This document shows, in pieces, positions 14,980 to 18,977 of a stretch of DNA of 23,383 nt. Under the pieces are notes generated by a model. The model saw nothing but the letters and a program-made list of their open reading frames with translations. It did no database searches and was not told the DNA's origin. Numbering within the stretch: position 1 is the stretch's first letter; every line of letters begins with the position of its first letter. Made by a program: the position numbers and the translations under genes. This stretch comes from a virus. Where the stretch lies: positions 1 to 23,383 of IMG/VR virus record IMGVR_UViG_3300038435_000034; one strand, given 5' to 3'.

Positions 14980-15432
14980 TTATACCGTTTGACATAGCGA
15001 AGCCTTTGAAATCGCGGCATTAGCTGCCTTCGTGACCTTGTGCATGGCCCGGCCGTAGCGCATCCGCAGCCCGTCAGCGCCGAGCTTTACGCCCATCGGC
15101 TTGCGCAACTGCATCCATGGCACCTGCTTGTCACCCCGCGACAGGGCGGTGATCGCCAGGCCGATCAGCTTCCGTTCCTCGGGCTTCACCGCCATCACCC
15201 ACCCGAACGCTTCCTCCATGTCGGCAATGTCGCGGCGCGATGCAGGCAGCGGACGCAGCGGCGGCGGCCCCATGTCGACGCCCCGCGCATCATAGTCGCC
15301 CATGTTGCGATCCCGCACGATGTCAGGCCAGCAAGCCTTGACCTTCAGCCATCCTGCTTCCCGGTCCGACATGCGCCGCATCACCAGCATGGCTTCGACC
15401 AACCGCGTTTCGACATCGGCAAAACTATACAT
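14980..15432 (-). CDS. DUF6362-like phage protein
   Basis: The product has 150 residues from ATG 15432 (MYSFADVETRLVEAMLVMRR), chosen because GGGAGG runs sit just upstream at good spacing. The layout fits the DUF6362 family as I recall it: an opening helix with ETRLVEAMLVMRRM, a WLKVKACWP motif, a Pro-rich linker, DIADMEEAFGWVM, and a C-terminal MGVKLGADGLRMRYGRAMHKV that reads as a helix-turn-helix-like segment. No enzymatic motif is visible. Its place between the replication gene and terminase, beside a repeat-dense control region, and the DNA-binding look of the C-terminus suggest a regulatory or packaging-linked role; this is inference. Confidence 0.72.
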   Translation of the reverse strand: MYSFADVETRLVEAMLVMRRMSDREAGWLKVKACWPDIVRDRNMGDYDARGVDMGPPPLRPLPASRRDIADMEEAFGWVMAVKPEERKLIGLAITALSRGDKQVPWMQLRKPMGVKLGADGLRMRYGRAMHKVTKAANAAISKASLCQTV

Positions 15433-15879
15433 CCTCCCTTCCTCCCTCTCTTGGGAGGGAGATATGGGAGGGAGAAGAGTAATAATATCAATAGGATCGT
15501 TGTTATCTGGGAGCATGGGAGGAATATCCTAGTAAGTCCGCGCGCGCACGCGCATGTGTCACGCGCGTACGTGCGCGCACCCGTGGGATTTGCTGTTTCT
15601 CCCTCCCAAGCTCCCACAAGCTCCCAAACTCGCGGAGATCTGCGGAAAATGAGCATTGCCCATCCTCCCAGATTTGGGAGTGTGGGAGGATCAGGGCGGC
15701 ATATGGTGCATGTTCAACTCGCAACTGGCGGACCGATAAGCGCGCTCGGACATTGCCCTTCACGCGCTCTATAAAAGTTTGCGCAATCATCCTCCCAAGC
15801 TCCCTGATCCTCCCAAAGCGGCAGAAATCAGGGGATTTCGATGGATTGCATCCCTCCCAATCACGGGAGGAAGGGAGGA
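15433..15879. repeat. Gene-free region with dense CTCCC/GGGAG repeats
   Basis: The longest gene-free stretch in the window (447 bp). I count by hand 21 copies of CTCCC or its complement. Longer shared units include CCTCCCAAGCTCCC (15602-15615 and 15791-15804), AAGCTCCCA (15609-15617, 15619-15627), ATCCTCCCA facing TGGGAGGAT (15662-15670, 15683-15691), and GGGAGGATCAGGGCGG (15684-15699 and 15873-15888). An AT-rich patch lies at ~15478-15500 and an alternating purine-pyrimidine tract at 15539-15580. It is bordered by the primase-helicase gene and a possible DNA-binding protein gene. Iterons of a replication origin or a multi-site operator are the best explanations. Confidence 0.7.
15539..15580. 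repeat. Alternating purine-pyrimidine tract with inverted repeat
   Basis: Two 21-base strictly alternating runs (15539-15559 and 15560-15580) with a single break between them, mostly CG and CA/TG steps, which favours Z-DNA under negative supercoiling. Within it GCGCGCACG (15542-15550) is complementary to CGTGCGCGC (15570-15578), so it could also extrude as a hairpin. Confidence 0.6.
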
Positions 15880-18800
15880 TCAGGGCGGAAGGTCGTCGTC
15901 ATCGAAACTCGGCGGCGGCAATGGAGAGGGGGGCACGGGGGGAGCTTCCTCCGGCGCACGCGATGCAGGCGCTCCGAGGGGCGCTCCAGCACTCGGCAGG
16001 TCCGGATGACGCGGCGGCGGCAGGTCGCGCTGGACCGGCTTGCCTTCCTCCACGAAATCGATCGTGTCGTAGCGGAGCATAATGTCCTGCCACTTCATCG
16101 TGCTGGACTTGTTGATCTTGAAGCTCTTGCGCTCCATCTCGGCGCGCAGCTTCTTGGCCGACCATGGCTTGCCAGTCTGCGGCAGATTCTCCGACCATGT
16201 CTGCCAGGCGACGAACAGCTCGTGCAGCGCCATCGAACCGACCGTGTTGCCCGCCTCGCGCGCGACGCACTTGGTCAGGAACTGGCCCAGCAGATCGTTA
16301 TCCTCATGATAGGCTTGCGTCGCCTCGATCATGGCGTCTGGCATGGTCAGCCCGTCCGTCAGATAGGCGAGCGCGCCTTCGATCATTCGGTTGAGGATAC
16401 CCGACATTTCATCGCGCAGCTTCGCCTTCAGCAGCGGGTCTTGATCTTCCTTGGCGATGATGATCGCCCAAGGGACGACCTGCATGCGCCGGCGGATACC
16501 GAAGTCGGTGCCGATGCGCGGCAGGTTGTTCGCCATAACCGTATTGGTGAAAGTGATGAGCAATTCGAAAGCGGGACCATACAGTTCTCGCACGCCGCCG
16601 ATCGGCTCGTCCGATGTCAGCGACTTCACCAAACCGTCGGAAAACTTGCTGTTATCCTCGGGTTCATTGGCATAGACCATGCGGCGGCCCTGCAACGCGG
16701 CCAAGTGGGGCGACGGGCCGCCACCATTGCGCTTGAACCCGCTATCCATGAAGGTTTCGATGCCGGTCGCCCAGGCATAGTCGCCAAGGATATGCGCATG
16801 GGTCTGGACCCAGACGCCTTTGCCGTTCGATCCTTCGCCGTAGAATAGCGCCATCACCTGCGCATCGGCGATGCCCAGCGCATTATACCCCGACCATCGC
16901 ATCAGCCAGTCGCGCATGTCCGCCGGCGGCTGCACCTGCTCTAGGAAACCATCATATTGCGGGCAGGTCGCGCCGGGCTGGTAGACCGCACGGGCAACCT
17001 TCGTGATCTTGTCTTCGCGCCGATGCTCGCGCAGCTCCACATGCGCAGGCTTGCCGCCGTCCGGGCGATGGAAAACCAACGTCCCGTTCTGGACGTTCAG
17101 GGCCAGCGGATCGGCGTCGAAGTCCTCCGGGCGGGCCGACAGGCGCGGCGGGGCCAGCTTGCGCAGGCACTCGATATGGCCGCTGCTTTCCGATGTGCGG
17201 CCCCATGCCGCCAGCTTGTCGGAGAACAGGACGATATCGCCATTGCTCTTCACCTGGTAGATGAAGTCGTGCCGATCGCCGTCATGCCGGGTCTTGCGCG
17301 CAAGGCTGCGCTGCAAATACCACATGGCACTACGCCGCGCCTGCCGCTTCTCTTCCGCCTTGATGAACTGTTTTTCGGCCCAACCGGGATCGGCGGACGC
17401 CTCTTCATCTTCCGGCTCTTCCGGCCGATCATCCTCCTGCTCGGGAATGTCGCCTTCCTCCGGCGGGAACGGCACGCCGCTCGCCCGGATGAAATCGGCC
17501 TCATCCTGTATCAGCCGCACCATCCGCTGCGCCGCGATGCCGAACAGGGCGTCGGCCATGCTGCGATTCCACCGTGTTTCGTCCCACGCGATGTATCCCG
17601 GAGACGAACTGCTCTCGGCCCATGCCGCGACGCACAGGAAATCCCGCCCGAAACGCGCAAGAAACCGCTCGAGATTGCCCAGGTCCGTCATCGGGTAGCG
17701 CGCACATTCGAGCGTCACAGACGCATCTACTGCCGCCCCCACCCCCTTTTTCGGGGCTTTGCGGCCTTCCCCTCCCTCGTGGGAGCTTGGCTCGCCATAA
17801 TCAGTCGAAGGGGGAGGAGCGGAGGCGGAAGAGCGGGAGGGATGATGTGGACGCTCCGCGCGCTGGCGCGCGCGCGTCGCGACGTCGGTCAGGTCACGGG
17901 GAGTTGCCTCCCCGGCGGTCCAGCCGCTGTTGATGGTGGCGTCGAGCTGGTGGTCGTCATCGTCGCCCGCATTGTCACGCGCGGCCGCCTCGATCGCCGC
18001 GCGGGCAAAGCGGGCATCCAGTGCGGCGAAGGGCGTAGAGACGGTCAGCGACGCGATCTTTAGCGCACTCTCATTCAGCTGGTCGTTGCGCGATCCCGAT
18101 TTCGCCGAGCGCACTAACTTGCATTCTGCATCCAGCGCTGAGAGGCCATATTTGCGAATGGCGTCTATTTCGGCCTGAGTAGCATCGGCCGGGCGCGCGG
18201 TCCCGACAGGTGCCGGCGAGGCGTTCGCCCGTGCGGCACCGCGATCCTTGGCCGCCTTCTTCCCTTTCGACCGCAATATTTCGATCAGCGCGGCCGGGGC
18301 CTCCACCGGATCGTCATGGCGGTTGGACAGCCAGCTATAACGGCCTTCCGTCCCATCCTCGCGATAGAGGATAGACGGCGGCGCAACGACATAGCCGCCA
18401 AGGCCCCGGACATCGACATGCCGGGGCAGGTTTCCCCGGTTTCGGATCGGTTCGCCATCCTTGGGCTGGAGCAGATAGACATGGACGCCGTCGCTCTGCG
18501 TCATGGCCGACAGGCTCTTGGGCAGGTCGCACCCCATCTGGTCGACGAGCGCCGCTTTCAGCGTGTCGAGCGTGAAAACCTCGCCGGTATCGTCATCCGT
18601 GCGCGGATCGAAATCGAGTGCGAACAGGCCGTTATGGCCCATCGCCAGCCCGATCATCGCATTGGGCCAGCGCCGCCACCAACCCTTGATGACCTCTTCG
18701 TCACGGGTCGCATCCTTGACGCCGCTACCGCTATAGGGCGCCTTGGCTTTCAGGACGATAGTGTCGCCATTGCCCTTCACCATCGAGAAATCGCGCTCGC

Positions 18801-18885
18801 GGCACGGGAAGACGGGCCAGCCCTTGCGAGCATAGCTCAGGGCGGCCTGGCCCATTGGTGACAACATCGGCGCGGATTGGCTCAC
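15880..18885 (-). CDS. Primase-polymerase / SF3 helicase replication protein
   Basis: The product has 1001 residues from GTG 18885 (VSQSAPMLSPMGQAALSYAR), preceded by a GGGGGGAA run; longer in-frame starts (TTG 18933, ATG 18915) are less well placed. Residues ~10-200 form an archaeo-eukaryotic primase/prim-pol domain: GWPVFPC, KGWWRRWPNAMIGLAMG, and LDFDPR with the catalytic DxD (91-93), then VHVYLL and GGYVVAPPS. A charged linker follows (~250-480). The C-terminal half is a D5/P4-type helicase: AQVMALFYGEGSNGKGVW with Walker A at 683-690, LQGRRMVYANEPED as Walker B region, and ITFTNTVMANNLPRIGTDFG. The last ~50 residues are Pro-rich with an acidic tip. It would prime and unwind phage DNA; the origin candidate lies right behind it. 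Confidence 0.93.
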   Translation of the reverse strand: MSQSAPMLSPMGQAALSYARKGWPVFPCRERDFSMVKGNGDTIVLKAKAPYSGSGVKDATRDEEVIKGWWRRWPNAMIGLAMGHNGLFALDFDPRTDDDTGEVFTLDTLKAALVDQMGCDLPKSLSAMTQSDGVHVYLLQPKDGEPIRNRGNLPRHVDVRGLGGYVVAPPSILYREDGTEGRYSWLSNRHDDPVEAPAALIEILRSKGKKAAKDRGAARANASPAPVGTARPADATQAEIDAIRKYGLSALDAECKLVRSAKSGSRNDQLNESALKIASLTVSTPFAALDARFARAAIEAAARDNAGDDDDHQLDATINSGWTAGEATPRDLTDVATRARQRAERPHHPSRSSASAPPPSTDYGEPSSHEGGEGRKAPKKGVGAAVDASVTLECARYPMTDLGNLERFLARFGRDFLCVAAWAESSSSPGYIAWDETRWNRSMADALFGIAAQRMVRLIQDEADFIRASGVPFPPEEGDIPEQEDDRPEEPEDEEASADPGWAEKQFIKAEEKRQARRSAMWYLQRSLARKTRHDGDRHDFIYQVKSNGDIVLFSDKLAAWGRTSESSGHIECLRKLAPPRLSARPEDFDADPLALNVQNGTLVFHRPDGGKPAHVELREHRREDKITKVARAVYQPGATCPQYDGFLEQVQPPADMRDWLMRWSGYNALGIADAQVMALFYGEGSNGKGVWVQTHAHILGDYAWATGIETFMDSGFKRNGGGPSPHLAALQGRRMVYANEPEDNSKFSDGLVKSLTSDEPIGGVRELYGPAFELLITFTNTVMANNLPRIGTDFGIRRRMQVVPWAIIIAKEDQDPLLKAKLRDEMSGILNRMIEGALAYLTDGLTMPDAMIEATQAYHEDNDLLGQFLTKCVAREAGNTVGSMALHELFVAWQTWSENLPQTGKPWSAKKLRAEMERKSFKINKSSTMKWQDIMLRYDTIDFVEEGKPVQRDLPPPRHPDLPSAGAPLGAPASRAPEEAPPVPPSPLPPPSFDDDDLPP

Positions 18886-18977
18886 AGTCAGAAATTCCCC
18901 CCGGCGCAAGCACATTGCTCCCCGGTCAATCAATCATCGGTGCTGGCGTCAGACGGGCGCGCACGCCCATGCGGGCG

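Follow-up and report, generated by a model that had tools for sequence, protein, structure and literature searches.

The stretch directly behind the primase-helicase gene of this virus carries a dense array of a 5-bp word in both orientations, and, judging from sequence comparison, we consider it probable (about 0.84) that the array is the replication origin of the phage and that the D5 protein encoded by the phage itself binds there with its C-terminal winged helix. The earlier note on this DNA had named the array as a candidate origin. In support of that proposal, the array depends on the D5 gene and not on the gene downstream, its layout persists from phage to phage under different words, and it matches P4 crr as well as the PICI/SaPI origins. 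The window, i.e. the whole stretch of DNA analysed, is a 23.4-kb virus record whose main genes lie on the minus strand in the order methylase, PAPS-reductase-like, SSB, PrimPol–D5 primase-helicase, array, DUF6362, HNH-like, small-terminase-like, large terminase and structural genes, the large-terminase and structural genes having been identified by eye from the list of ORFs. A nucleotide search found no close relative among isolate phages. The features of the region are listed here in the direction of the minus strand.

15883-18933, minus strand: PrimPol–D5_N primase-helicase gene, 1017 codons (stop codon 15880-15882), encoding the proposed initiator that would read the array
17772-17785, minus strand: inverted pair CTCCC-ACGA-GGGAG in the PrimPol–D5 linker, peptide SSHEGG
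16075-16266, minus strand: coding stretch for the C-terminal winged-helix domain (approximately residues 890-953; K942 lies within it), from DSSP of the model
15854-15877, minus strand: left outer cluster, copy 1, CTCCC-n3-CTCCC-n6-GGGAG (positions 15873, 15865 and 15854)
15792-15814, minus strand: left inner cluster, copy 1, GGGAG-n5-GGGAG-n3-GGGAG (positions 15810, 15800 and 15792)
15665-15688, minus strand: left outer cluster, copy 2 (positions 15684, 15676 and 15665; direct repeats D1 and D4, spacing 189)
15599-15625, minus strand: left inner cluster, copy 2, GGGAG-n5-GGGAG-n3-GGGAGGGAG (positions 15621, 15611, 15603 and 15599)
15522-15598, no strand: core between the inner clusters, a GC-rich inverted repeat of alternating purines and pyrimidines
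15509-15521, minus strand: right inner cluster, CTCCC-n3-CTCCC (positions 15517 and 15509)
15475-15508, no strand: AT-rich patch between the right inner and right outer clusters (richest 25-mer 19/25 A/T)
15434-15474, minus strand: right outer cluster, CTCCCTCCC-n4-CTCCCTCCC-n6-GGGAG-n3-GGGAG (positions 15470, 15466, 15457, 15453, 15442 and 15434)
15430-15432, minus strand: start codon of the DUF6362 gene
14980-15432, minus strand: DUF6362 gene, next downstream of the array (Pfam DUF6362, 7e-08)

The array spans the region from the primase stop codon to the DUF6362 start codon, and its 21 copies of the 5-mer (11 CTCCC and 10 GGGAG) lie at 15434-15877, within 458 bp. The count of 21 and the roughly tenfold excess over expectation given in the earlier note both hold, as 2000 dinucleotide-preserving shuffles of the same 458 bp gave a mean of 2.03 copies (sd 1.33, maximum 7), and 454-bp stretches of the window that do not overlap the array never contained more than six. 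The copies follow a fixed code of spacing and orientation. About half of the array is made up of a 189-bp tandem duplication, which is why the left outer and left inner clusters, separated by 44 bp, are present twice; the two perfect 14-mers that had been noticed before, CCTCCCAAGCTCCC, were located at 15602-15615 and 15791-15804. The inner clusters lie 82 bp apart across the core, whose inverted repeat (I7) has arms at 15536-15556 and 15560-15580 with 81% agreement over 21 nt, and at the other end of the array the right outer cluster reaches the DUF6362 start codon and overlaps the ribosome-binding site of that gene. The AT-rich patch previously pointed out at 15478-15500 is present and is a plausible candidate for the unwinding element, although the core enclosed by the inner clusters is GC-rich and the patch lies outside it, flanked by the right inner cluster on one side and the right outer cluster on the other.

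The earlier note had named enrichment at the syntenic site in relatives as a test of its proposal, and in 33/33 relatives found with the primase protein (49-96% identity) the array stands at the primase stop codon, with 7-22 copies per locus. The unit of the left outer cluster also follows the primase stop codon in relatives, the core is partly conserved, and among eight aligned close versions 68 of the 72 pentamer columns are invariant vs 100 of the 195 other columns. DNA-pattern scans of viral contigs recovered the same architecture in many further phages, and the arrays of CTCCC type whose flank is present adjoin a D5 helicase gene with few exceptions (L171 and L197, where the D5 gene is cut off or unrecognised). 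Among 14 phage records of 37-55 kb, 44 of the 45 CTCCC-n3-CTCCC pairs fall at this single spot. Many other matches of two DNA-pattern scans (e.g. L047, L165, L180, L202 and L235) were rejected as unrelated GC-rich or low-complexity repeats, and a G-quadruplex was rejected as a common feature because the fourth G-run is absent in several relatives (L011, L018 and L027).

The gene 3' of the array varies. It is DUF6362 in the kin of the window's phage, a NusG-like/KOW-domain gene replaces it behind the array in five loci (L037, L084, L119, L142 and L232), and in two others (L099 and L138) the gene at this place has no Pfam match. Since the downstream gene varies while the array and the D5 gene stay together, the array belongs with the D5 gene; DUF6362 is not needed for it, and the DUF6362 product was ruled out as the reader of the array because the array persists where DUF6362 is absent. 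As side observations on this family, only helices are predicted for the DUF6362 product, and its conserved C-terminal motif LRMRYGRA may form a helix that binds DNA; the exchange of genes suggests that the DUF6362 product and the NusG-like protein could stand in for each other as late regulators. We found no mention of the DUF6362 family in the open-access literature searched.

The association with the D5 gene extends well beyond the CTCCC word. We fetched 80 loci by D5-profile similarity alone, blind to arrays, and searched the 553 bp after the stop codon for a 6-mer over-represented on both strands. A locus counted as positive from a score of 6 upwards, the score being the negative log10 of the Poisson tail without correction for how many words were compared. 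By this measure a dense word array on both strands follows the D5 gene in 58/80 loci, vs 0/400 dinucleotide shuffles, 4/75 stretches taken 1.5-2 kb further on and 0/80 stretches inside the gene. In the other 22 loci nothing within these 553 bp reaches the threshold; some of them have weaker or displaced arrays, and the rest may rely on a different element. The number of different words in use is at least 15 (CTCCC, CTTCC, TCTCCA, CTCCA, CGTCCC, TGTCC, TGTCGG, ACCCTC, AACCCT, TCCCTA, TATCCT, ATAGTT, TGCACC, CCAGTT and more), and the layout is kept: an outer cluster, about 45 bp, an inner cluster, the core, and then the mirror-image clusters. The inner clusters run in 8-10-bp steps in opposite orientation across a gap of roughly 65-125 bp, and in the clearest cases the outer clusters lie about 45 bp beyond them. 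The TGCACC locus L317 is an almost exact dyad (> 10 > 10 > 45 > 10 > [79] < 10 < 45 < 10 <).

Arrays are also found in isolated phages, namely RcapNL (GGGACG), JY28 (GGAAGG), Pthi1 (CAGGCCC), R4C (AGGGAG), Pan4 (GGAAGAT) and mycobacteriophage Milly (ATCTGTCCA). In the tested stretch, no array was found in the actinophages Rollins (Microbacterium), Kaylissa (Arthrobacter) and Vash (Streptomyces) or in Escherichia phage PJ16, and in RcRhea the array is displaced about 0.5-0.8 kb further downstream. We also observed a strong array of 11 CTGTCC copies within 450 bp in Rhizobium phage RR1-A (L254); it lies 3' of the primase at a distance of about 1.9 kb, with annotated genes between it and the primase stop. 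In Bordetella phage BPP-1 (L341), about 500 bp 3' of the primase, two copies of GCCTCGTTT and two of its complement flank a short spacer, and this set may be an origin of the iteron type. The earlier proposal for this phage was a stem-loop origin.

The protein encoded beside the array is an SF3-type PrimPol–D5 primase-helicase (Pfam Prim-Pol 3.4e-35, D5_N 1.1e-14). An AlphaFold model covering D5 and the C-terminal part (pLDDT 85.8) has a winged-helix topology in the C-terminal part, where DSSP gives a strand at 492-501, helices at 502-515 and 528-537, and strands at 542-544 and 548-555. By VIA-align the model matches ASFV PrimPol (Z 29.6, 465 residues, 4.4 Å) and SaPI5 PriRep1 (Z 29.4, 396 residues, 4.7 Å), and its structural matches include a D5-type head-to-head double hexamer (9im3).

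Word and protein change together. The same word is used in 96% of phage pairs with more than 65% C-terminal identity and in 12% at 20-30% identity, and word similarity follows the identity of D5_N (partial 0.20) and of the C-terminal part (0.14) and not that of the helicase core (-0.05), figures that are descriptive only because the phage pairs are not independent. As a predictor of the word, D5_N identity is no worse than identity of the C-terminal domain. The single protein position most associated with the word is alignment column 491 (K942 of the window's protein, at the wing, codon about 16108-16110), with a Fisher value of 7.7e-11 that is inflated by relatedness; the column is still at the top (1.6e-7) when the close kin of the window's phage are left out. 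It is K in 35/40 phages with a TCCC word and Q in most of the rest, A, P, T or V in 11/11 CTTCC phages, R in phages of the TGTCC, TGTCGG and TGTAGG types, and H in 3/3 phages of the CTCCA type. Eight independent contrasting pairs on the tree gave three for the link between residue and word, none against and five ties, a test that is underpowered with eight pairs and in which several of the 'non-TCCC' members really use CCTCC-like words. We regard a residue code at 942 as suggestive and no more. A broader reading, which we hold tentatively and would rate at somewhat worse than even odds, is that D5-type phages carry a modular, fast-changing origin code in which the residue at 942 (K/Q, A/P/T/V, R or H) helps to set a 5-6-bp word, all copies switch together, and the words divide the phages into replication-compatibility groups.

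Among known systems, the arrangement most closely resembles those of P4, the PICIs, pRN1 and SCCmec. In P4, crr lies directly 3' of alpha and consists of two 120-bp repeats, 180 bp apart, with 8-bp repeats in both orientations at steps of 9 and 43 bp, and the same word scan detects P4 crr as a positive control. The window's phage shares with alpha/crr/ori1 of P4 an array directly 3' of a D5-type primase-helicase gene, repeats in both orientations at 9-bp and about 43-bp spacing, a duplicated block and a second site elsewhere; it differs from P4 in the word (TGTTCACC in P4), in the primase domain (TOPRIM-type in P4, Prim-Pol here) and in the second site, which lies 4.7 kb away in P4 and is an inverted pair inside the gene here. 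In PICIs the origin sits right behind the 3' end of the initiator gene, its melting region enclosed by two sets of iterons, and in SaPI Rep and SCCmec Cch2 the C-terminal domain binds iterons just downstream of the protein's own gene (PMC7581432). As in the PICI/SaPI Rep–ori systems, two iteron sets surround a core immediately 3' of the initiator gene here, whereas the core, AT-rich in PICIs, is GC-rich in the CTCCC phages, and PICIs are satellites whereas the carriers here are complete tailed phages that encode terminase and structural proteins themselves. The window's phage is not a PICI, as large terminase- and structural-type genes are present in the window and terminase relatives stand beside the array in other loci. 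SCCmec Cch2 is likewise a D5-family helicase whose C-terminal domain binds 5-bp iterons downstream of its own gene, but it has three iterons of the word AAGTG and no bilateral array. The Sulfolobus plasmid pRN1 depends on a stem-loop that closely follows the gene for its PrimPol–SF3–winged-helix protein (PMC4234260), in a cis element within the 166 bp downstream of that gene. pRN1 was reported to lack iterons, whereas stem-loop and iterons occur together here. When compared with a P4/PICI-type self-loading SF3 replicon, the window's phage has a D5/SF3 helicase with a C-terminal winged helix (Pfam and model), iterons directly 3' of the initiator gene and two oppositely oriented iteron sets around a core, and no tested feature is in outright conflict with such a replicon, although the AT-rich stretch, which this replicon type has between the two sets, lies outside the GC-rich core here. 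No RepA-like gene, the mark of a classical iteron plasmid origin, was noticed.

The word also occurs as an inverted pair inside the primase gene. The minus-strand unit that had been noticed near 17790-17780 is present and is one half of CTCCC-ACGA-GGGAG at 17785-17772. CTCCC-N4-GGGAG is kept in most CTCCC phages although the linker is otherwise poorly conserved, and it encodes the peptide SSQxGG or SSHxGG. Four CTTCC phages (L268, L270, L274 and L284) have a CTTCC...GGAAG pair at a matching distance from the stop codon, and the ACCCTC phage L326 has GACCCTCCCGAGGGTC as its intragenic pair. An inverted pair of the phage's own word was found inside the gene in 34/69 loci, vs an average of 4.0 (maximum 12) for foreign words, in a linker zone that was picked after the CTCCC cases had been seen; without the CTCCC phages the signal is moderate (10/35 vs 2.4, maximum 8), and a simple own-word test over 3 kb with 5-mers is weak (23/72 vs 10.8, maximum 21). 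A second inverted pair in the primase gene, GGGAG-GCAA-CTCCC at 17899-17912 (minus strand), about 115 bp upstream of the linker pair, also occurs in L009 and L022 and may be due to chance, as it overlaps the conserved protein motif PRD.

By analogy with these systems, the C-terminal winged-helix domain of the primase-helicase would bind each 5-mer, and the inner clusters would seat two helicase rings face to face, an arrangement that we propose because the inner clusters point in opposite directions around the 82-bp core. Melting by the rings would take place in the core or in the AT-rich patch next to it, with the PrimPol domain priming both strands. P4 requires another site in addition to its origin, and the inverted pair in the primase gene may likewise be an additional binding site.

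We weighed four other explanations, of which a cos or pac site, where the small terminase or the HNH protein would bind the repeats and the cut would be made in the core or in the AT-rich patch, is the best rival, since the terminase genes follow the array and the RcapNL record places a cohesive end near it. We nevertheless regard it as unlikely. The array does lie just upstream of (DUF6362)–HNH–TerS–TerL, and the '3' cohesive overhang' annotated at the ends of the RcapNL record is about 40 nt away from the CGTCCC cluster of that phage. However, RcapNL is circularly permuted in the paper that gives the ends of the RcA-cluster phages, for which 13-base 5' overhangs were measured; in RcRhea the end is at 36,065/1 and two genes separate it from the array at about 34.4-34.7 kb; even where TerS and TerL differ (38-40% identity, L232 and L114), the word goes with the D5 gene; and a cos site leaves the intragenic primase pair unexplained. 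The annotation of the RcapNL record (L252/L257), which prints a 26-base '3' cohesive overhang' at both ends, itself looks doubtful. A cos site deduced from contig ends was rejected, as L163 and L188, which seemed to end in the array, are adjacent stretches of one contig (at 23.5 of 53 kb). We also regard it as unlikely that the array is a D5-dependent control or incompatibility site, with replication starting elsewhere, e.g. at the intragenic pair. In P4 a distance of 4.7 kb lies between crr and the annotated origin, the two have the same repeats, and crr must be present in cis, but a single array per phage record was found in 14 phage records, and for the PICIs and pRN1 the origin itself is the region that follows the gene on its 3' side.

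Neither of the remaining two explanations accounts for the fact that the word follows the D5 protein. That the array is primarily an operator or late promoter, through which the DUF6362 product or another HTH regulator controls the late genes, we judge very unlikely, even though the array fills the gap before DUF6362, its right outer cluster overlaps the DUF6362 ribosome-binding site, and the DUF6362 and NusG-like products could be late regulators: the same word is kept when unrelated genes replace DUF6362, and no sigma-70-like promoter was found in the region. A second role of the array as an operator is possible. An RNA element, i.e. a transcript folding through CTCCC/GGGAG stems as a terminator, an antiterminator or a translational control, is scarcely credible. 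The transcript folds much better than shuffles (z = -9.3), but so does any sequence with many inverted copies; stems do not need same-strand copies at 8-10-bp spacing that all switch word together, and the region has no Rfam match and no terminator-like site. Operator sites and scattered ribosome-binding sites, the alternatives raised in the earlier note, are disfavoured with respect to a replication origin.

A 2018 paper stated that this origin layout is found in no known bacterial replicon except the PICIs (PMC6092414). Among the loci compared here, the layout described as special to PICIs is widespread in tailed phages, although earlier phage reports may exist beyond the open-access literature, and its presence in full phages suggests shared or exchanged replicons. 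A both-strand word array behind the D5 helicase gene would provide a simple rule for finding the origin in many tailed phages, many of them from Alphaproteobacteria. The naturally matched set of words and proteins is material for learning how SF3 initiators choose their origins, for which few systems have been studied so far, and the finding also predicts which phages and satellites would be able to trigger, or to block, replication at one another's origins.
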